Assembly (NCBI GenBank): GCA_036397255.1
Contig: DASWJH010000054.1
Coordinates: 1-47,103, forward strand
Direction of reading: 5' to 3'
Source of the DNA: Nitrospiria bacterium
Lineage (GTDB): Bacteria; Nitrospirota; Nitrospiria; DASWJH01
DNA length: 47,103 bases
In this document: in pieces, positions 8,201 to 22,828 of the stretch
How the letters are laid out: each line of letters begins with the position of its first letter
Numbering within the stretch: position 1 is the stretch's first letter
Translations under genes and position numbers: made by a program
The notes under the pieces: generated by a model
What the model was told of the DNA's origin: nothing
Database searches by the model: none
What the model saw: only the letters and a program-made list of their open reading frames with translations

Positions 8201-9545
8201 ATGGCCAGGCCCCGGTGCAGAGTTGATATAGTTCTGTCTCATCCATTTCCCGCGTGGCTACTTCGGCAACGATTTGCTGAGCGAGAATATCCAAGGGGGC
8301 TTCCGGGATCTCGATCCGATCCAGATGCCCCGATTGGACGGCCCGAAGAAGGGCAGTGCATTCAATCAGTTCATCCCGTGTTAAAGCAAAGAGCCGACCT
8401 TTTGGAACAAGACCCAATGCGTGTCCCGAGCGGCCGACCCGTTGAAGAAAGGTGGCGATAGCGCGGGGAGAACCCATCTGGATCACTAAATCAATAAACC
8501 CCACATCAATCCCTAATTCTAAAGATGCGGTTGCAACCACTGCTTTGAGCTCTCCATCTTTAAGGCGTTGTTCCGCCCGAAGACGGATTTTTTTTGAAAG
8601 AGATCCGTGATGAGAAGAGACGGCCTCGGGACCTAACAGTTCGGTCAGATTGTGTGTGATTCGCTCAGCGAGTCTTCGGGTATTGACGAAAATTAATGTG
8701 CTTCTGTGTGTTTGCACCAGTTCTGCCAAGCGGTTGTATATCTCTTTCCATTGTTCATTGGAGCAGATGGCGGATAAGGGGGAAGGGGGGATTTCAATAG
8801 AAAGGTCCATTTTTCTTTTGTGTCCCACATCAACAATCGTGCATTGTGGTTTCCCTTTTGGAGCCACCCGATTGGTTCCCACGAGGAAGCGCGCAATTTC
8901 TTCCATGGGCCGTTGGGTGGCCGATAAACCAATGCGTACTGGACGCTTCAGGCAGAGATGGTCGAGGCGTTCCAAAGACAAGGCCAGGTGTGAGCCACGT
9001 TTGTCCCGGGCCACCGAATGAATTTCATCGATAATAATGGTTTTAACGGTTTTAAGCAGTTGCCGGCTTTTTTCGGCAGTGAGCAACAAATAAAATGATT
9101 CGGGTGTGGTCACGATGATATGGGGCGGTTTTTTAAGCATGGCTTGACGCTCAGATGCCGGGGTATCCCCTGTTCGGACAAGCACTCGAATATGAGGAAG
9201 TAAAAGGCCCTCTTGAAAAGCCAAGGCCATGATTTCGGTTAAAGGGCCCTGGAGATTTCGTTGAATATCATTGCTCAGTGCTTTTAAAGGAGAGACATAA
9301 ATAGCTTGTGTATGATCCGGAAGGTCTCCCGAAGCGCCTTGATGAACTAAATCGTTCAGACAGGCCAGAAATGCGGAAAGTGTTTTCCCCGACCCGGTGG
9401 GGGCTGCAATCAGTGTATCTTGCTCCTTTAAAATGGGAGGCCATCCCTCCTGCTGGGCTTCCGTAGGGGTTCCAAAGCGGGTGGCAAACCATTTTTGGAC
9501 TAGGGGATGAAAAAAGGTTAAAGCCATGGGGAAATTATAAACCAT
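5214..9545 (-). CDS. lhr: Lhr-type ATP-dependent DNA helicase (long form)
   Basis: Superfamily 2 DNA helicase acting in DNA repair; bacterial Lhr translocates 3'-5' on single-stranded DNA and unwinds RNA:DNA hybrids. The N-terminal core shows the Q-motif region FGTPTEAQ, Walker A APTGSGKT (about 48-55), TTPES, the DEIH box (about 173-176), LSATQ, the RecA2 motifs STLIFVNTRRLAE and VVATASLELGID, and motif VI LQRVGRSGH. A winged-helix and Lhr-specific region follows (ESMSGDIFLLGNTSW, FGGRINRAWGLSL), then a long C-terminal DUF-type extension of more than 600 residues. At 1443 residues it is the long Lhr form also found in E. coli and actinobacteria. ATG 9545 has AAAGGG just upstream and is preferred over ATG 9527. 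It leads a unit with the Dabb and zinc-ribbon genes. Confidence 0.93.
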   Translation of the reverse strand: MVYNFPMALTFFHPLVQKWFATRFGTPTEAQQEGWPPILKEQDTLIAAPTGSGKTLSAFLACLNDLVHQGASGDLPDHTQAIYVSPLKALSNDIQRNLQGPLTEIMALAFQEGLLLPHIRVLVRTGDTPASERQAMLKKPPHIIVTTPESFYLLLTAEKSRQLLKTVKTIIIDEIHSVARDKRGSHLALSLERLDHLCLKRPVRIGLSATQRPMEEIARFLVGTNRVAPKGKPQCTIVDVGHKRKMDLSIEIPPSPLSAICSNEQWKEIYNRLAELVQTHRSTLIFVNTRRLAERITHNLTELLGPEAVSSHHGSLSKKIRLRAEQRLKDGELKAVVATASLELGIDVGFIDLVIQMGSPRAIATFLQRVGRSGHALGLVPKGRLFALTRDELIECTALLRAVQSGHLDRIEIPEAPLDILAQQIVAEVATREMDETELYQLCTGAWPFRNLTRKTFADVIHMLNEGFSTGLGKGNTFIHLDRVHQKIRPRRGSRLAALTSGGAIPELADYRVVAYPEKIHVGSVDEDFAIESMSGDIFLLGNTSWQILHVRGGEVGVQDAHGAPPTIPFWRGEAPARTIELSEEISKLREEIFKRLHSPQKAQDWLKKEIDIPESAAHQMVDYFQAQKAAIGVLPSQGHIVFERFFDESGGMQLVIHSPFGGRINRAWGLSLRKSFCRTFDFELQSSADDNGIVISLGPQQSFPLESISKMVTPNNGKTILEQALLAAPMFMTRWRWNANRSLAILRQRGGKRVPPPIQRMRADDLMVKLFPQQMACRENLPQGDVPIPDHPLVFQTVFDCLHEAMDVDGWLNLLKKIEGGQISITAVDTREPSPFSYEILNANPYAFLDDAPLEERRARAVSTRRTLTIESVRDIGKLDPHAIEQVKKEAWPLVRTPDELHEALSQVGMFPFSDGTQWEEYYKTLHKEGRALEVSGKEQKPFWVATELWPLVKIARPDFSLDIEPLVPQGVRTDWSASEAWTFLVHGRLELLGPTTVDKLSSDLGLDPSKVDSALSALESQGLVLRGHFNPNATEPEWCSRHLLTRIHRLTLDRLRRQVEPVTVEQFFQFLFRWHHLETGTQLNGPQGVASVIEKLQGFEIPAMAWEQIILPQRVKKYETRWLDELCLNGEVTWARISQPFAKTDDLPNRIRMATKILPISLMIREDLWWLCPSTPNIPPYILSHGAQSTLELLQKQGATFFPDLLKGTGLLPTQQEEALWELVAAGLITGDGFAGIRSLTNPLKKHQESVIRRLKRRGRAVHAVRRGAGRWTIFQTNHSEKQEQEEQTEAWAHQLLERYGILFRDLLSRDDCAPPWYSLRPILRRMEARGEVHGGRFVSGVSGEQYGLPDAVEMLRHIRKESPEPAITYVSGVDPLNLIGIITPGSRLPALSFNIAAFYGGSLVGSTKGGEVWVSENLKTELTSKVFQILKSGRLLNPYS

Positions 9546-9630
9546 TTACCCTTTGTTCTAAAGACCAAAGGATAAGGAAATCAGGTTTTCTAATTTCATG
9601 GATTTTGGGTTTAAAAAGGGACTAACCTGT

Positions 9631-11544
9631 TTAAGGTTTCTTTTCACGGCAATAAGGACAGAATGCCCATTCGGGTTGCAGGGCTTTTTTACAGGTTTGA
9701 CAGCGGTGAAGGACTTCTTCCCCGCAGTAAGGGCAGATAAGAAAATCGATGGTAAGGGATTTTGAACAGTTTTGGCAAAAGGTTTGAAGCTGATCTTCCA
9801 CCTCAATGACTCTTGCCAATTCCGAGACTGATGTTAAACCCTCTCGTATTTTTTGAAGGCCGGATTCCCGAAGGCCAATCATTCCCATGGAAAGTGCCTC
9901 TGACCGAATTTGCTGTTCCGGGGCATTGGCGGAAATAGAATCCCGAAGGGCGGGTTTGAACCCCATGATTTCGTGGATTCCGGTTCGCCCTTGATATCCC
10001 GTTTGGGAACAATTAGAACATCCTTTAGCCTGGAAAAAGGTAATTTCTTTAACCGCTTGAGGAGGAATATTTAAAAGCGACAATTCTTCCTCAGGCGTGG
10101 GAATGGGTTCTTTGCAATGGGTGCAAAGGGTACGGACCAACCGTTTTGCCATGATTCCGACCACTTGAGATGCGATGAGGTGGCGGGGAATCCCAATTTC
10201 CAAAAGACGGCCAATGGTGGAAGGGGCGTCATTGGTGTGTAGGGTCGAAAGGACCAGGTGGCCGGTCATCGCTGCCCTAAATGCAATTTCGGCAGTTTCA
10301 GAATCCCGGATTTCCCCAATCAAAATCACATTCGGGTCCTGTCTAAGGATAGCCCGTAGACATTTGGCGAATGAAAGGTCAATACTGGTATTGATTTGAA
10401 TCTGATTCACCCCATCGATGGTGTATTCAATAGGATCTTCCACCGTCATTAAATTCGTGCTCTCAGATCTTAAACGGTTGATCATGGCGTACAGGGTGGT
10501 TGTTTTTCCGCTGCCTGTAGGGCCGGTGACCAGAATAATTCCCTTTCGATGAGTACAAAGCGATTCTACCAATGAAAACTGCTCTGGAAGCAACCCCAGG
10601 GATTCCAATGTGGTTAATAAATTGGATTGATCCAATATTCGGATGACTACTTTTTCCCCGTGTTGGGCAGGGATGACGGATACCCTCAAATCAATTTCCC
10701 GGTTTTCAACTTTGATTCGCACGGCGCCATCTTGGGGTTGTCTTCTATCTGCAATATCCAGGTTGGCTAAAATTTTGATTCTGGAGGCCAACGCCCCTTG
10801 CACCCATCGCGGAACTCGCATTCCCTCTCTTAACAACCCGTCCACGCGATACCGAATACGGCAATCCTGCTTTCCAGGTTCAATATGGATGTCGCTGGCT
10901 TTATTTTTTATCCCGCTGCTGATAATCACATTGGCCAAACGAATAATTGGGGCCAGTTGACTTTTTTCCTCCAATGATTGGTTTTCAATTTTATCCGTTC
11001 GAATTTCAGGGACAACCTGAATCAGTGTTTCATCGTTAAAATCCTTTGCTGATTCTTTGACAATATCTTCAACGGATTTGGATTGATCGGAGGTTTTTTC
11101 TTTATATTGGCGATTGTTGGCTTCAACAATTTCTTGTTTAGAGGCCAGAACCGGTTCAATGGCATAGCCGCAATAAAACGAAAGGTCTCGGATACAGTCG
11201 TAGTCGAGGGGGTCCACCATGGCCACCGTTAACACTCTGTTTTCGAGTTTCAGCGGAATGATGTTGTGTTTCCGGGCCAAATGCTCCGATATCAAAAAAA
11301 CTACTTCGGGGTCGAAGGAAATCCTGTCCATTTCAACCACTTGATAGCCCAATTGAAACGCCAAGGATTTTTTGACTTGCTCCTCCGTGATCAAATTTAA
11401 ATCGATCAAAATTTCCCCAAGTTTTTTCCCGGTCCTCTTTTGTTCTTCGAGGGCTTTTTCCAAGTCGGCGGGTTCCAATAAACCGTTTTCAACCAGGAAA
11501 TTTCCAAGGCGTTTTTTTAAATAATTTCTTTTTCCGGTTTCCAT
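9631..11544 (-). CDS. PilB/GspE-type assembly ATPase with C-terminal double zinc ribbon
   Basis: Cytoplasmic hexameric ATPase of the type IV pilus/type II secretion family, which powers pilin or pseudopilin polymerisation. The N-terminal MshEN domain (about 8-150) contains LGNFLVENGLL and HNIIPLKLENRVLTVAMVDP. The catalytic core has the Walker A GPTGSGKTTT, the Asp box VEDPIEY, Walker B LIGEIRD and the His box TGHLVLSTLHTNDA. The usual zinc motif is CTHC with CSNC. What is unusual is a further C-terminal tail of about 50 residues with CQNC, CPYC, CQTC and CPYC, a second pair of zinc ribbons. No pilC, pilT, pilin or secretin gene is nearby, so it is an orphan. Upstream a weak minus-strand promoter can be read. 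Whether it serves pili, type II secretion or MshE-like c-di-GMP-responsive assembly is open. Confidence 0.9.
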   Translation of the reverse strand: METGKRNYLKKRLGNFLVENGLLEPADLEKALEEQKRTGKKLGEILIDLNLITEEQVKKSLAFQLGYQVVEMDRISFDPEVVFLISEHLARKHNIIPLKLENRVLTVAMVDPLDYDCIRDLSFYCGYAIEPVLASKQEIVEANNRQYKEKTSDQSKSVEDIVKESAKDFNDETLIQVVPEIRTDKIENQSLEEKSQLAPIIRLANVIISSGIKNKASDIHIEPGKQDCRIRYRVDGLLREGMRVPRWVQGALASRIKILANLDIADRRQPQDGAVRIKVENREIDLRVSVIPAQHGEKVVIRILDQSNLLTTLESLGLLPEQFSLVESLCTHRKGIILVTGPTGSGKTTTLYAMINRLRSESTNLMTVEDPIEYTIDGVNQIQINTSIDLSFAKCLRAILRQDPNVILIGEIRDSETAEIAFRAAMTGHLVLSTLHTNDAPSTIGRLLEIGIPRHLIASQVVGIMAKRLVRTLCTHCKEPIPTPEEELSLLNIPPQAVKEITFFQAKGCSNCSQTGYQGRTGIHEIMGFKPALRDSISANAPEQQIRSEALSMGMIGLRESGLQKIREGLTSVSELARVIEVEDQLQTFCQNCSKSLTIDFLICPYCGEEVLHRCQTCKKALQPEWAFCPYCREKKP

Positions 11545-16682: not shown

Positions 16683-16711
16683 TTGACATTGATATTTGAA
16701 ATGGGTATTTT
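16683..16711 (+). promoter_or_regulatory. Sigma70-type promoter of the copper-binding surface protein gene
   Basis: A perfect TTGACA (16683-16688), a 17 bp spacer and TATTTT (16706-16711, four of six matches). Transcription would start near 16718 and give an untranslated leader of about 135 bases, which is long for a simple structural gene and contains the hairpin and palindrome listed next. Confidence 0.6.
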
Positions 16712-16853: not shown

Positions 16854-18095
16854 ATGAGAGAGGGGAAAAAAAGTCAAAAAGGAAAATTTGGCTTAATTCT
16901 TTGTTTGTTAGTTGTTGGAACTGCCATGATCTTTGCTCCGATGGATTCTGAAGCGGCGACCTTTAACGTGGCCGCAGGAAGCGCCGGGGGCCCTTTATCT
17001 TTTACCCCAAGCCCCGTTAATATTGCACCGGGGGATACAGTCCTATGGACTGTAGGAGGATCAGCGCCCCATACGATACAAAGCGGAAGCTCTTCCGGTG
17101 GAACATGCACTATTATTCCGGCCTTCAATTCAGGAAGTCTAAACGCTGGACAAACCTTTCAAAGAACCTTCCCCAGCGCCGGGGTTTGTAATTACCGTTG
17201 CCAACTCCATTTCGGGTTTATGGATGGGGTGGTCAACGTAGGTGCGGGAACAACAACCACCACAACAGGGGCAACTACCACCACGACCAGCGCCACCACA
17301 ACCACAACCACTCTTCCATCAGGAAATGGGGGGGATTCCTCCGATTCTGGTGATTTCAATAATAACGGTAATTTAGATCTTGTCGTGGCCGACAGCGTCA
17401 ATAATAACATCATTATTCTGTTGGGAGATGGAGCGGGGAATTTAAGCCTTCAGACCAGCATAGGCCGGCCGGTAGGTAGCGCTCCGATTTCTGTCAAGAC
17501 GGGTAGCTTTAACACGAATACCGATAATAATGATGATATCGTTGTAATCAACCAGGGTACTGACAATATTTCGATATTGTTGGGGAATGGAACCGGTGGG
17601 TTCAGTGAGCCGGGGGCGTCATCTCCCTTTACGGTGAACGGGATTACCGGATTAACCACTTTGGCCACTGGCCAATTTGACAATGACATCAGTAATTGTA
17701 TGGACCTTGCGGTCAGTACCACAGGAACCTCTGTGGTGCTGTCCGGTAATTGTAATGGGACCTTCCAAGGAACCACCGGCCCGACAACCACCACAACCAC
17801 AACAGGCGGGCCTACAACTACCACGGGAGCAACTACCACAACCAGCACCACCACGACCACCACAACCACCTCAACCTCAACCACAACTTCTACCACGACC
17901 ACGACGACCACAACCTCAACCACAACTTCTACCACGACCACGACGACCACCACTTCAACCACAACTTCTACCACGACCACGACGACCACCACTTCAACCA
18001 CAACTTCTACCACGACCACGACGACCACCACTTCAACCACAACTTCTACCACAACCACGACAACCACCACCACCACCACAACAACGGTTCCATAA
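16854..18095 (+). CDS. Exported cupredoxin/FG-GAP-like protein with threonine-rich repeat tail
   Basis: Secreted or surface protein. A Sec signal peptide (about 1-34) has a lysine-rich start, a leucine/valine core and probable cleavage after SEA. A cupredoxin domain (about 36-129) carries a full type-1 copper ligand set: His73 in APHTI, then Cys116, His119 and Met123 in CQLHFGFM. A threonine linker (133-153) leads to about three FG-GAP/VCBS-like repeats (167-305) such as DFNNNGNLDLVVAD and DNISILLGNGTGGF, with Ca-binding-like DxNxNGxxD. The last 100 residues are almost only Thr and Ser, ending in VP, with no sortase, autotransporter or TM anchor visible. The start has a strong AAGGGGAGAGAG site. 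It is monocistronic: its own promoter precedes it and a strong terminator follows. Role (electron transfer, copper binding or adhesion) is unknown. Confidence 0.85.
   Translation: MREGKKSQKGKFGLILCLLVVGTAMIFAPMDSEAATFNVAAGSAGGPLSFTPSPVNIAPGDTVLWTVGGSAPHTIQSGSSSGGTCTIIPAFNSGSLNAGQTFQRTFPSAGVCNYRCQLHFGFMDGVVNVGAGTTTTTTGATTTTTSATTTTTTLPSGNGGDSSDSGDFNNNGNLDLVVADSVNNNIIILLGDGAGNLSLQTSIGRPVGSAPISVKTGSFNTNTDNNDDIVVINQGTDNISILLGNGTGGFSEPGASSPFTVNGITGLTTLATGQFDNDISNCMDLAVSTTGTSVVLSGNCNGTFQGTTGPTTTTTTTGGPTTTTGATTTTSTTTTTTTTSTSTTTSTTTTTTTTSTTTSTTTTTTTTSTTTSTTTTTTTTSTTTSTTTTTTTTSTTTSTTTTTTTTTTTTTVP
17877..18071 (+). repeat. 39 bp tandem repeat, five copies, coding the Thr/Ser tail
   Basis: Units start at 17877, 17916, 17955, 17994 and 18033, each beginning TCAACCACAACTTCTACCAC. 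The middle copies are nearly identical at base level; the last diverges by a few G to A changes. Each codes for STTTSTTTTTTTT (13 residues), so gain or loss of a copy keeps the frame. Such arrays usually vary in number between strains. Confidence 0.9.
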
Positions 18096-18152
18096 AGGGA
18101 TTTTTGAAAATAACCAAAGTCTTCTCAATTAATCATTGAGAGTTCGAAAATG

Positions 18153-18191
18153 GAGCCCAGCTCTTCAAAGTGAGCTGGGCTCTTTATTTTT
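18153..18191 (+). terminator. Strong rho-independent terminator
   Basis: GAGCCCAGCTC (18153-18163) and GAGCTGGGCTC (18172-18182) form a perfect 11 bp stem with an eight-base loop, followed by TTTATTTTT. It closes the transcript of the surface protein 58 bases after its stop codon. Confidence 0.92.
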
Positions 18192-18238: not shown

Positions 18239-19063
18239 ATGGGCAATTTGTTTTGGAAAGTTTTAAATAGTTCCTTTTTTTCCTTTGGGGTAATATTTTT
18301 ATTCTGCGGTATTGTCCATGGGGGGTATATCACCATTAACACCACAACCGACCTTAAATATGAAGGGAGTAACCTTGAGGTTTCCATCGAAGTAAGCAAT
18401 ACAGGAGATGAATCAGCCTATAACGTCCAATTTACCTGTGAAATATTGGGTAAAGTTTTGACCTCGGATATCAAACCGGAACTTAAGGTCCAGGAAGCAT
18501 TTAAACAGGTTCTGATCTCCCCCCTCAAATTGGAAACCCCTGGGCGGTACCCTGCGGTTGTCACTGTTAGTTATACCGATGGGAACCAATATCCTTTTTC
18601 TGCTTTAAGTATTCCAGCGTTTGTCTACCAAGAAGCCACCTCCTCAAAGGTTTTGGGAATTCTTAAAGGCCAGGAAATCTCCTCTAAGGGGTATACCGAA
18701 TTAATTGTAAAAAACCTGGATGATATACCCAAAACCGTCCGGATGCTTTTTGTTCTTCCAAAGGAGTTGTCTTCAAGCGATCTTCAACGTGAAATTAATT
18801 TAGATCCCAAAGCCGAGGAAACCATTCCTTTAGAGGTAAAGAATTTTTCCGCTTTACCCGGCAGTCAATATACGGTTTATGCGGTCTTGGAATATGATTT
18901 AGGGGAAAAACATTTTAATTTAAACGCGGTGGGGAACATAAAGATTGTTAAAAAAGATTTGCTGAAAGAGAACAAAAATATTTTAATCGGAATTGCCATT
19001 TTTCTGGCTTTGGTTTTTGTGGCCCTCAACATAAAATTTCTAAAGGGTCGTCGAAAACCCTGA
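18239..19063 (+). CDS. Membrane-anchored exported protein with Ig-like (CARDB-type) domains
   Basis: A signal peptide or N-terminal TM (about 8-29) is followed by an extracytoplasmic part of about 215 residues rich in beta-strand patterns. The first half, with LEVSIEVSNTGDESAYNVQF and YPAVVTVSYTDGNQYPF, resembles CARDB/COG1361-type beta-sandwich domains that bind or space cell-surface components. The second half has a similar pattern (YTELIVKNLDDIPKTVRMLF, EETIPLEVKNFSALPGSQYT), suggesting two tandem domains. A C-terminal TM (about 249-268) and a basic KGRRKP tail fix it in the inner membrane. I cannot assign a specific function. It starts 47 bases after the preceding terminator and may be first gene of the polysaccharide-like cluster downstream. 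Confidence 0.72.
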   Translation: MGNLFWKVLNSSFFSFGVIFLFCGIVHGGYITINTTTDLKYEGSNLEVSIEVSNTGDESAYNVQFTCEILGKVLTSDIKPELKVQEAFKQVLISPLKLETPGRYPAVVTVSYTDGNQYPFSALSIPAFVYQEATSSKVLGILKGQEISSKGYTELIVKNLDDIPKTVRMLFVLPKELSSSDLQREINLDPKAEETIPLEVKNFSALPGSQYTVYAVLEYDLGEKHFNLNAVGNIKIVKKDLLKENKNILIGIAIFLALVFVALNIKFLKGRRKP

Positions 19064-19224: not shown

Positions 19225-21951
19225 ATGACCGGGTCCGGTTGGGACAGGACATTCTCTTTTGGGTTTTTGAAAAAAGAACCGCTGATTGATCTCTCCTTCC
19301 TTCTGATTATTTTTGCCTTTCTATTTACTTACTTCGATCCAAAATTGCTTTTCCTGAAAACCATTGTAACCGGTGGTGACACCGCTTCCCATTATTATAC
19401 GGCACAGTATTTACGGGAAGAACTCCTGCCCAAAGGTAAAATAATTGGATGGTTGCCTGGGAATTATGCTGGGTTCCCCCTTTTTCAGTTTTATTTCCCC
19501 CTTCCTTTTGTTATCGCGGTTATACTGTCTCTTTTTGTATCCCTTGAGATTGCATTTAAAATAACCACTGTCCTGGGAATTTTTCTGCTCCCCATTTCCG
19601 CTTATTTTTCATTTAAGTTGATGAAATTTTCCTTTCCAATTCCCATTTTTGGGGCGTTGGTCACCCTGCCCTTCCTTTTTATGGAAGCCAATTCCATGTG
19701 GGGTGGAAATATTCTCAGTACGTTGGCCGGGGAGTTTTCCTATAGTCTGGGGTTTTCGCTCAGCATATTGTTTATCGGTTCAATGTATAACGGCATTAAA
19801 TCTCAACAACATGTGCTGAGAAATGCCATTTTAATAGCTCTGACGGGGTTTAGTCATGGCTATACCCTCCTTTTTGCTGGGTTGGCTTCTCTGTTTTTTT
19901 TGATTACGACCGAGAAATTTTTTAAAAAGTTAGGATATTTAATTAAAGTCCATTCATTGGGTTTTTGTTTAATGGGTTTATGGATTTTACCGTTACTCTT
20001 TAACCTGCCTAATACCACCCGTTATAATTTTGTATGGGTCATCAATTCCCTCTTTGAGGTTTTACCCGTCATCCTCATTCCTTTTGTTGTAATATCCGTT
20101 TCCGGGAGGTTGTTGGATTGGGGTTTTTTATTTTGGAGGTTGAAAGGTACCTCCCAATCCCTGAACCTCATTTTTCAATCCTTCATCGATAAAATGGACC
20201 TCAGAATCTATTATTTTTGGTTTTGTGTTTTGGTGGGTGCGGTTTTCTATTTAATTGCCTATCGGGTAAATGTAGTGGACATTCGGTTTTTACCTTTTTT
20301 GCAAATATTTTTGGTTCTCCTTGCTGCCATTGAATTTGGAAAATTCATACAGAGGTTAAGAGCCCCTTGGATTTTTGCCCCGGTTCTTCTAATTGCCATT
20401 TTATTGTGGGTGGACCACCATTCTGTAAAGGTTAAAGATTGGGTCAATTGGAATTATTCCGGATTCGAAAAAAAACACTCTTGGCCGGTATTCAACGGGA
20501 TTAACCAATTTATTGCGGGAGGTGTTTCTGATCCAAGAGTTGTCTATGAACATGCTTCGGCTCACAACAGCATGGGGACCCTTCGGGCTTTTGAATCGAT
20601 CCCTCTTTTTTCTGGACGTTCTACATTAGAGGGAATTTATATGCAGTCTTCGATTACGTCTCCCTTTGTTTTTTATATTCAATCGGAAATCTCAAAAGAA
20701 AAATCCTGCCCATTACCCGATTATGGTTGTTCAACGCTAAACCTGGAAAAGGGAATCGAGCACCTGAAACTATTTAATGTCAAAGATTTTATTGTTCGAA
20801 GTGAAGAGGTTAAATCCCAAATTAAAAAATACCCTGAGTTTTCTTTAAATAAAAGAATTGGGCAATATGAAATTTATGAATTAACCTCCAATGAAAACCG
20901 GTATGTGGTTTCCCTTTCGATTGAACCGGTTTTATATGAAACGAAAAAATGGAAAATGGTTTCCTATCGATGGTTCAAACAGTATGATTTGGATCATCCT
21001 CATTTAGTCTTCACTGATCAGGTTAACAAAAAACATTATCAGCACTTTCAAAATATTCTATATGACGGAGAAATAAACGGGTTACCCAAAACTCCGGTAC
21101 CGGGGCCTTGTGAGGTTGAAGAGAAAATTAAAAAAGAAGAAATTTTTTTTAAAACCACGTGTATTGGAAAGCCTCATCTGATCAAAATTTCGTACCATCC
21201 CAATTGGGAGGTAGAGGGGGCCTCTGAGGTATTTCTAATTTCCCCGTCTTTTATGTTAGTTTTCCCGGAACAAGAAAAGATTATTTTGCGATTTTCAAAC
21301 GGGTGGGTGGAGCGAACGGGGATTTTTCTTACTGGGATTGGCCTAATTTTTTCAATGCTCAGTATTCCCTTGTTAAAGGAAAGCCGTTTCAATAAAAGAT
21401 TTCAGAGTTGCCTGGGGGAAGGCCAAACCGGTTTTTTACATTTCCTGCAGAGTTTTGCTTTTATCCAGGCCTTTTCCAAGGTCATAGAACACCATAAATG
21501 GAAGGTTTTTTTCTCGATCTGTTTTGTTCTGATTTTGGGGGTGACCGGTTTTGTTTTGCAATCTAAGGTGGCGGATCCCAATATTTTATACACACGGGGT
21601 TTGAGTTCTTATAATAAAGAGAATTTTGGAGAAGCACGGTCTTTATTTGAACAGATCATCCAAGCGTATCCCGAAACATCAACCGCCCAAAGCGCGAGGT
21701 ACTATTATGCAATCACCTTTTTTAAAGAAAACCAATATCCTCGGACGATTGTTGAATTTGAGAATTTAATCAAGAACTATCCTGAGAGCCATTGGGTTCC
21801 CGAGGCGTTGTATCATATCGGGCTTTGTCATTCACGCCTGAACCGTTGGGAAGAGGCGGAAGATGTTTATCAAAGAATTATTCGCGATTTTCCCGCTAGT
21901 CCCTGGGTGACACATGCACAGCAGCGGTTGGCTGAAAAGGGAACCCGCTAA
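19225..21951 (+). CDS. Large polytopic membrane protein (PTPS-related/YfhO-like) with C-terminal TPR domain
   Basis: 908 residues. About 11-13 hydrophobic segments fill the first 400 residues. The first periplasmic loop contains GGDTASHYYTAQYLREELL and GWLPGNYAGFPLFQFYFP, the signature of the 6-pyruvoyl-tetrahydropterin synthase-related membrane family (despite the name, GT-C-like polytopic proteins). A soluble periplasmic domain (about 410-690) with a WHxxW-like region (ISYHPNWEVEG) resembles YfhO/DUF2298-type proteins. Two more TM segments follow, and the last 125 residues are TPRs of the BamD/YbgF type (YTRGLSSYNKENFGEARSLF, YYYAITFFKENQYPRTIVEF, YHIGLCHSRLNRWEEAEDVY). An acidic GGD in the first loop fits a GT-C glycosyltransferase. 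A role in lipid-linked sugar transfer is inferred. The start at 19225 has only a weak ribosome site. Confidence 0.72.
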   Translation: MTGSGWDRTFSFGFLKKEPLIDLSFLLIIFAFLFTYFDPKLLFLKTIVTGGDTASHYYTAQYLREELLPKGKIIGWLPGNYAGFPLFQFYFPLPFVIAVILSLFVSLEIAFKITTVLGIFLLPISAYFSFKLMKFSFPIPIFGALVTLPFLFMEANSMWGGNILSTLAGEFSYSLGFSLSILFIGSMYNGIKSQQHVLRNAILIALTGFSHGYTLLFAGLASLFFLITTEKFFKKLGYLIKVHSLGFCLMGLWILPLLFNLPNTTRYNFVWVINSLFEVLPVILIPFVVISVSGRLLDWGFLFWRLKGTSQSLNLIFQSFIDKMDLRIYYFWFCVLVGAVFYLIAYRVNVVDIRFLPFLQIFLVLLAAIEFGKFIQRLRAPWIFAPVLLIAILLWVDHHSVKVKDWVNWNYSGFEKKHSWPVFNGINQFIAGGVSDPRVVYEHASAHNSMGTLRAFESIPLFSGRSTLEGIYMQSSITSPFVFYIQSEISKEKSCPLPDYGCSTLNLEKGIEHLKLFNVKDFIVRSEEVKSQIKKYPEFSLNKRIGQYEIYELTSNENRYVVSLSIEPVLYETKKWKMVSYRWFKQYDLDHPHLVFTDQVNKKHYQHFQNILYDGEINGLPKTPVPGPCEVEEKIKKEEIFFKTTCIGKPHLIKISYHPNWEVEGASEVFLISPSFMLVFPEQEKIILRFSNGWVERTGIFLTGIGLIFSMLSIPLLKESRFNKRFQSCLGEGQTGFLHFLQSFAFIQAFSKVIEHHKWKVFFSICFVLILGVTGFVLQSKVADPNILYTRGLSSYNKENFGEARSLFEQIIQAYPETSTAQSARYYYAITFFKENQYPRTIVEFENLIKNYPESHWVPEALYHIGLCHSRLNRWEEAEDVYQRIIRDFPASPWVTHAQQRLAEKGTR

Positions 21952-22138: not shown

Positions 22139-22828
22139 ATGGACCCTTATACCGTTTTTATCCCTGTATATAATGAGGAAGAAATTCTTGAAAAAAATAC
22201 TCAAAAATTAATGAATTTCCTTGAGAAATTAGATACCCCTTATGAGATTATCCTTGGAAGTAATGGTTCCTCGGATCGGACTCCGGAAATCGGGTTAATG
22301 TTACAGGAAAAATTTCCCCAGGTTAAATTTTTCCACATTGAGGATAAAGGCCCTGGTTCTGCACTTAAAAAAGGAATTACCCTTTCTTCTTACCACAATA
22401 TCATTTCCGTTGATATGGACCTTTCGGTGGATTTGAATTTTATAAAAATGGCCAATAAACTTTTGTCAGATTTTGATTTGGTTGTGGGGTCTAAAAGAAT
22501 GGGGGCCCAGAAAAGGTCTCTTCTTAGAAAGGTGGCCAGTGCATCATTTATATTTTGTGCCATGATTTTGTTGGGGTTGAGTTTCGATGATTATTCACTT
22601 GCTGCCAAGGCCTATAAAAAGAAAATACTCGAAGGGTGTATAGATCGAATTGAGGGAGGAACCTTTTATGTCATTGAGGTTTTAAATTTTGCGGTTCGCC
22701 ATAATTTTTCAACTGTTCAGATTCCCGCTCCCTGTGATGATCAACGCAGGAGTAAGTTTAACCTTTTGAATGAGGGGTTTTATCGTTTTGGAAAATTATT
22801 CAGATTATGGCTTAATCCCCCAGGTTAA
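22139..22828 (+). CDS. Family 2 glycosyltransferase
   Basis: GT-A fold, inverting glycosyltransferase of the dolichyl-phosphate-mannose-synthase-like branch. The nucleotide-sugar site is clear: VFIPVYNEEEIL at the start, then ILGSNGSSDRTPEI, and VDMDLSVDLNF at about 91-101 with the DxD aspartates (D92, D94). In place of the classic DADLQ it reads DMDLS. The 229-residue protein has no clear C-terminal TM pair, so it is soluble or peripheral and probably makes a lipid-phosphate sugar or extends a glycan. It is first gene of a tight operon running to 25776, preceded by GGGAG directly before ATG. Confidence 0.88.
   Translation: MDPYTVFIPVYNEEEILEKNTQKLMNFLEKLDTPYEIILGSNGSSDRTPEIGLMLQEKFPQVKFFHIEDKGPGSALKKGITLSSYHNIISVDMDLSVDLNFIKMANKLLSDFDLVVGSKRMGAQKRSLLRKVASASFIFCAMILLGLSFDDYSLAAKAYKKKILEGCIDRIEGGTFYVIEVLNFAVRHNFSTVQIPAPCDDQRRSKFNLLNEGFYRFGKLFRLWLNPPG

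Follow-up and report, generated by a model that had tools for sequence, protein, structure and literature searches.

The gene at positions 16,854–18,095 of the 47,103-nt stretch of DNA analysed here (the window) appears to join a copper-binding domain, part of a β-propeller and a threonine-rich tail, raising the question of whether this combination is real and what such a protein would do. Translation of the plus strand from ATG to TAA gave a 413-aa protein whose frame is open across every segment. A Shine-Dalgarno-like AGGGGAG lies a short way ahead of the start codon, and a consensus scan revealed a sigma-70-like promoter at 16,683–16,711 (plus strand, TTGACA-17-TATTTT, 10 of 12 matches, by itself no proof of function) and a strong intrinsic terminator-like hairpin of 12 pairs followed by TTATTTTT at 18,152–18,183 (plus strand), so the gene is plausibly transcribed alone. 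No Rfam RNA family was detected anywhere in the window. Residues 1–34 (16,854–16,955) read as a signal peptide, in which MREGKKSQKGK precedes a hydrophobic core; inspection placed the likely cleavage site at SEA↓A and found no lipobox, the core LILC not matching one. This peptide would take the protein across the inner membrane and then be cut off.

The first mature segment, residues 35–130 (16,956–17,243), was identified as a cupredoxin by Pfam, by its sequence relatives in the PDB, by AF2 modelling with Foldseek and by its ligand columns. Copper-bind (PF00127) matched residues 39–129 with 29.1 bits against a cut-off of 21.2, and the AF2 model (mean pLDDT 88.2, pTM 0.82) displays the Greek-key β fold of cupredoxins, with Foldseek matches to pseudoazurin, 5fc9 and plastocyanin (TM about 0.7–0.84 to plastocyanins and pseudoazurins). 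A sequence search of the PDB likewise returned the Nitrosopumilus blue-copper protein 5fc9 and plastocyanins, and a profile built from 28 relatives reached plastocyanins, amicyanins and Nitrosopumilus blue-copper domains, as well as the C-terminal cupredoxin of 9cck at best E 4e-19. The type-1 copper ligands occur in the order H73, C116, H119 and M123 (residue numbering checked), and their columns are conserved among the cupredoxin relatives, with an invariant first His and a nearly invariant Cys and second His. The complete type-1 site of the original prediction is thus confirmed, as is its exported polypeptide carrying both a cupredoxin and FG-GAP repeats, on which the frame, the inspected signal peptide and Pfam agree; two of the checks proposed with it, structure prediction and a domain search, gave a confident cupredoxin fold and both domains above their cut-offs.

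The domain shares its fold, four-ligand order and exported location with the plastocyanin/azurin family (PF00127: plastocyanin, amicyanin, pseudoazurin, 5fc9 and the C-terminal domain of 9cck), from which the protein differs in an extra Cys pair, in the FG-GAP fusion and in the length of the ligand loop; its C-x2-H-x3-M loop is longer than that of amicyanin and shorter than that of plastocyanin. Identity as plastocyanin, amicyanin or pseudoazurin proper was ruled out by scores far under the respective NCBIfam equivalog cut-offs (31.5 against 87.85, 22.3 against 110.2 and 15.1 against 109.85 bits). Cysteines matching the extra pair, C85 and C112, are present in small cupredoxin lipoproteins of family f8 (L066, L072, L083 and L087) and in the relative from genome G003 described below, which suggests a C85–C112 disulphide.

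As a rule, cupredoxins are either small carriers with a single domain or components of oxidases, and plastocyanin-type proteins carry single electrons between redox proteins. We favour, with moderate confidence, a secreted or periplasmic one-electron copper carrier whose partial propeller multimerises or docks it; for this protein we infer copper loading, electron transfer, assembly and the function of the tail. The cupredoxin would bind one copper ion through His73, Cys116, His119 and Met123 and would most likely pass electrons one at a time from one redox protein to another, within the periplasm or immediately outside the cell. Scavenging or storage of copper would fit a lone gene with no obvious redox partner, and indeed no electron-transfer partner gene lies adjacent to it, but electron transfer is the typical role of proteins with one type-1 site and plastocyanin-like relatives, the translation holds no Met/His-rich copper-binding segments, and no copper transport genes were recognised among the neighbours scanned. 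We therefore regard a scavenging or storage role as unlikely.

A Thr-rich linker ending in TTTTTTLP (17,244–17,318) would flexibly connect the carrier domain to three FG-GAP blades, residues 156–310 (17,319–17,783), which were recognised by Pfam FG-GAP_3, AF2 and Foldseek. FG-GAP_3 (PF13517) scored 33.5 bits against a cut-off of 26.9 over three stretches, the best at residues 167–217. About three Ca-binding-like repeats had been predicted: the count stands, but, as read from the sequence, a full calcium-loop motif (DFNNNGNLD) is found in repeat 1 alone, repeats 2 and 3 being degenerate with insertions, among them a two-residue insertion in repeat 2 (FNTNTDNNDDIV). The AF2 model of the segment (pLDDT 83.4) gave partial propeller matches in Foldseek including LGI1, Psathyrella lectins, integrins and the designed Pizza3 and Pizza6, of which Pizza3 is a three-blade protein. 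In repeat sequence and predicted blade fold the segment resembles FG-GAP/integrin-type propellers (PF13517), including multi-repeat proteins of the same genome (contigs C3, C97, C5 and C79), from which it is set apart by its mere three repeats, mostly degenerate calcium loops, the repeat-2 insertion and the cupredoxin in front.

An integrin-type closed propeller has seven blades, and Pfam and AF2 reveal only three in this chain. Since propellers comprise four to twelve blades (PMC6805158), a single chain is unlikely to close its own propeller, and the blades probably need additional copies of the protein, or a partner, to complete one; the copper domain would thereby be clustered or docked. 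WD40 propeller pieces of three blades can assemble as trimers (PMC6805158). The three-blade fragment is a natural test case for the folding of incomplete propellers.

To find relatives, 247 genomes of the class were searched with Copper-bind and the long frames were read, which yielded a second fusion, a 905-aa protein of another family in the same class (genome G003; L134 1424–4138, minus strand). It consists of a signal peptide, a cupredoxin with the Cys pair, a Gly/Thr linker, FG-GAP repeats (three by visual count, of which two pass Pfam), a Big_2-like domain and four CARDB domains. Its cupredoxin scored 22.1 bits in the genome search, just above the cut-off, and matches the alignment-based profile; in a Pfam scan of the whole protein it was absent at E 0.001. 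BLASTP between the two proteins gave one segment running over cupredoxin, linker and FG-GAP region (29% identity, 46.6 bits). In both, repeat 2 reads FN-x-NTD-xx-DDIV with two residues extra, an insertion seen only in this pair among the FG-GAP proteins collected, the 185 other repeats being regular. The neighbourhoods are similar as well. The G003 gene is immediately followed, in the same orientation, by genes for a response regulator and an M24 peptidase and by valS-nadC-birA-coaX; in the window, the same response-regulator-valS-nadC-birA-coaX block, likewise co-oriented with the fusion gene, comes about 11 kb downstream. The response regulator, often preceded by a ribonucleotide reductase gene, recurs across the class. 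Unlike the window protein, the G003 protein has a Gly/Thr instead of a Thr linker, continues into Big_2-like and CARDB domains and ends without a Thr tail.

Judged from sequence, the two proteins share ancestry, and the domain combination is real, rare and inherited, assembled from known parts. The original prediction had been staked on the domains not lying on separate proteins in all relatives, and in G003 they share one chain in the same order. An assembly artefact, in which unrelated pieces were joined via repeated sequence, might be suspected in a 122-contig draft genome with a repetitive tail; it is extremely improbable given that the first Thr linker spans only about 75 bp, that an independent genome has the same domain order and the shared insertion, and that the 3′ flanks differ between genes with Thr tails. 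The draft state of the assembly does leave the length of the repetitive tail uncertain.

The fusion is scarce. FG-GAP repeats occur in 2 proteins among the 79 cupredoxin frames collected (the G003 protein is listed twice, as two overlapping loci), and no cupredoxin-FG-GAP gene was found upstream of the response regulator in 20 further relatives of the class, several of them on short contigs. A search of 270 class genomes with the G003 cupredoxin-FG-GAP part gave no third fusion and, at that threshold, missed the window gene itself, so more divergent members may exist. A search of genome contigs with the corresponding part of the window protein found no relative, and the G003 part matched only relatives of its FG-GAP region. 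Copper-bind was also run across the phylum, and six of the longer frames still left were read; those that matched the cupredoxin profile proved to be a fusion to a YVTN propeller or to carry a different C-terminal domain after the cupredoxin. No paper on a cupredoxin or blue copper domain with FG-GAP repeats in one protein was found in a literature search of incomplete coverage. Most likely, the fusion arose once and was rarely retained. Its retention suggests that the carrier is, in some bacteria, built into a larger assembly, either extracellular or periplasmic. In the G003 protein, where Ig-like and CARDB domains follow the FG-GAP region, this region may serve to bind a partner rather than to self-assemble.

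Downstream of the blades, the window protein finishes in a Thr/Ser tail ending in TTVP and the stop codon (17,784–18,092, plus strand), which was delimited by TRF and composition. From residue 315 it comprises 99 aa (80 Thr, 12 Ser, 3 Gly, 2 Pro, 1 Ala and 1 Val; 93% Thr/Ser), which upholds the predicted length of about 100 residues and corrects the description as threonine only. The underlying DNA is a 39/78-bp minisatellite at 17,850–18,082 (TRF) with a period that is a multiple of three.

A pattern search for Thr tracts in the source genome uncovered at least five other exported proteins with Thr-rich linkers or tails, encoded on contigs C62, C73, C38 and, in two cases, C26. Those on C62, C73 and C38 are lipoproteins; the C62 protein also ends in TTVP and stop and the C73 protein in Thr, so that three proteins of this genome, including that of the window, finish in Thr tails. 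The two lipoproteins with long Thr/Ser tails (L199 5509–6939 and L200 8496–9878, on C62 and C73 of the source genome G000) are anchored at the N-terminus, with the tail at the opposite end; the C62 protein closes with TTTTTTTTVP and stop like the window gene, and its 3′ flank is unrelated. The C26 proteins are an exported cytochrome of 1086 aa (L198 3585–6842), in which Thr-rich linkers and Ig-like repeats come after five CxxCH haem motifs, and its neighbour (9523–9999), which also has Thr linkers. Mixed-codon Thr tracts of comparable kind were found elsewhere only in G022 among 55 class relatives.

Internal Thr tracts mostly end in T-[LIV]-P ahead of the next domain, in other exported proteins of this genome as in the first linker of the window protein, so the C-terminal tail resembles this linker element, here stranded at the chain's end. 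This resemblance also invites the reading that the gene is a mosaic by-product, truncated so that a Thr-repeat linker replaces lost downstream domains and the function is reduced or absent. Such a history would account for a linker-like TTVP ending with an immediate stop and for the same ending before an unrelated 3′ flank on C62; the G003 relative does go on with Ig-like and CARDB domains, and minisatellite DNA is unstable. Yet neither the copper ligands nor the FG-GAP cores nor the frame are disrupted, the gene is bracketed by promoter-like and terminator-like signals, and the three Thr-tailed proteins indicate that the arrangement is tolerated or used, which makes a by-product quite improbable. 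The tail is most likely a flexible linker-type segment, possibly glycosylated.

The original prediction had suggested a surface electron carrier or copper-binding adhesin standing away from the cell on a mucin-like stalk, taken here as a glycosylated Thr segment. FG-GAP repeats are found in adhesive proteins such as integrins, and the tail composition would suit such a stalk, as would a membrane GT-C-like protein, a GT2 and a flippase-like protein encoded nearby. Overall, the neighbours are membrane glycosyltransferase-like and housekeeping genes. A flippase-like protein is encoded upstream on the opposite strand; downstream, past the terminator, follow a CARDB-like membrane protein, a 908-aa membrane protein with a PTPS_related (GT-C-like) region and C-terminal TPRs of BamD/CpoB type (19,225–21,951, plus strand), a GT2 (22,139–22,828), a GMC oxidoreductase-like protein and an epimerase. 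For the 908-aa protein, whose layout recalls the eukaryotic TMTC O-mannosyltransferases, no full-length relative was found in 55 class relatives, all matches being TPR-only. By inspection of the translation, however, the protein has no anchor at either end, neither a lipobox nor a C-terminal hydrophobic segment or sorting motif. With the tail at a free C-terminus and a signal peptide expected to be removed, there is no indication of a stalk. The terminator separates the gene from the glycosyltransferase genes, the G003 protein lacks the tail, and G022 has Thr tracts but no such GT-C, an observation that also leaves a general tie between Thr tails and the GT-C gene unsupported. The stalked-adhesin reading is hence weakly supported and, in our estimation, improbable.

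Glycosylation of the tail by the nearby glycosyltransferase set is possible, as suggested by proximity only. A more elaborate proposal describes an inherited exported class of blue-copper proteins in which several chains, for example two or three, combine their three FG-GAP blades by self-assembly to close a propeller and thus display several copper centres together, with the tail O-glycosylated by the nearby GT-C/TPR protein; taken as a whole, this is very unlikely. A link between the CARDB-like gene at 18,239–19,063 and the CARDB domains of the G003 protein was rejected, as there is no significant similarity and the CARDB match of the former is below cut-off.

Other combinations of a cupredoxin with a propeller occur in the class and phylum. 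Three cupredoxin-YVTN-propeller fusions (L137 1349–2752, L140 1559–3598 and L188 2396–3643) likewise place a cupredoxin, before or after the propeller, and a β-propeller in one exported chain; they differ from the window protein in the propeller family and in having a full blade set. In G005, the same kinds of domain stand side by side, a cupredoxin gene lying 30 bp upstream of a gene with multiple FG-GAP repeats and three CARDB domains (L135 2334–5159, minus strand), but on separate proteins and with a cupredoxin of another subtype (CANHMQVWG). At four further loci (L078, L079, L085 and L193), the domain C-terminal to the cupredoxin, unnamed and about 130 aa long, recurs across families of the phylum. 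Elsewhere in the window, the minus strand at 9,631–11,544 encodes a GspE/PilB-type ATPase with an MshEN domain and a C-terminal double zinc ribbon (DZR).
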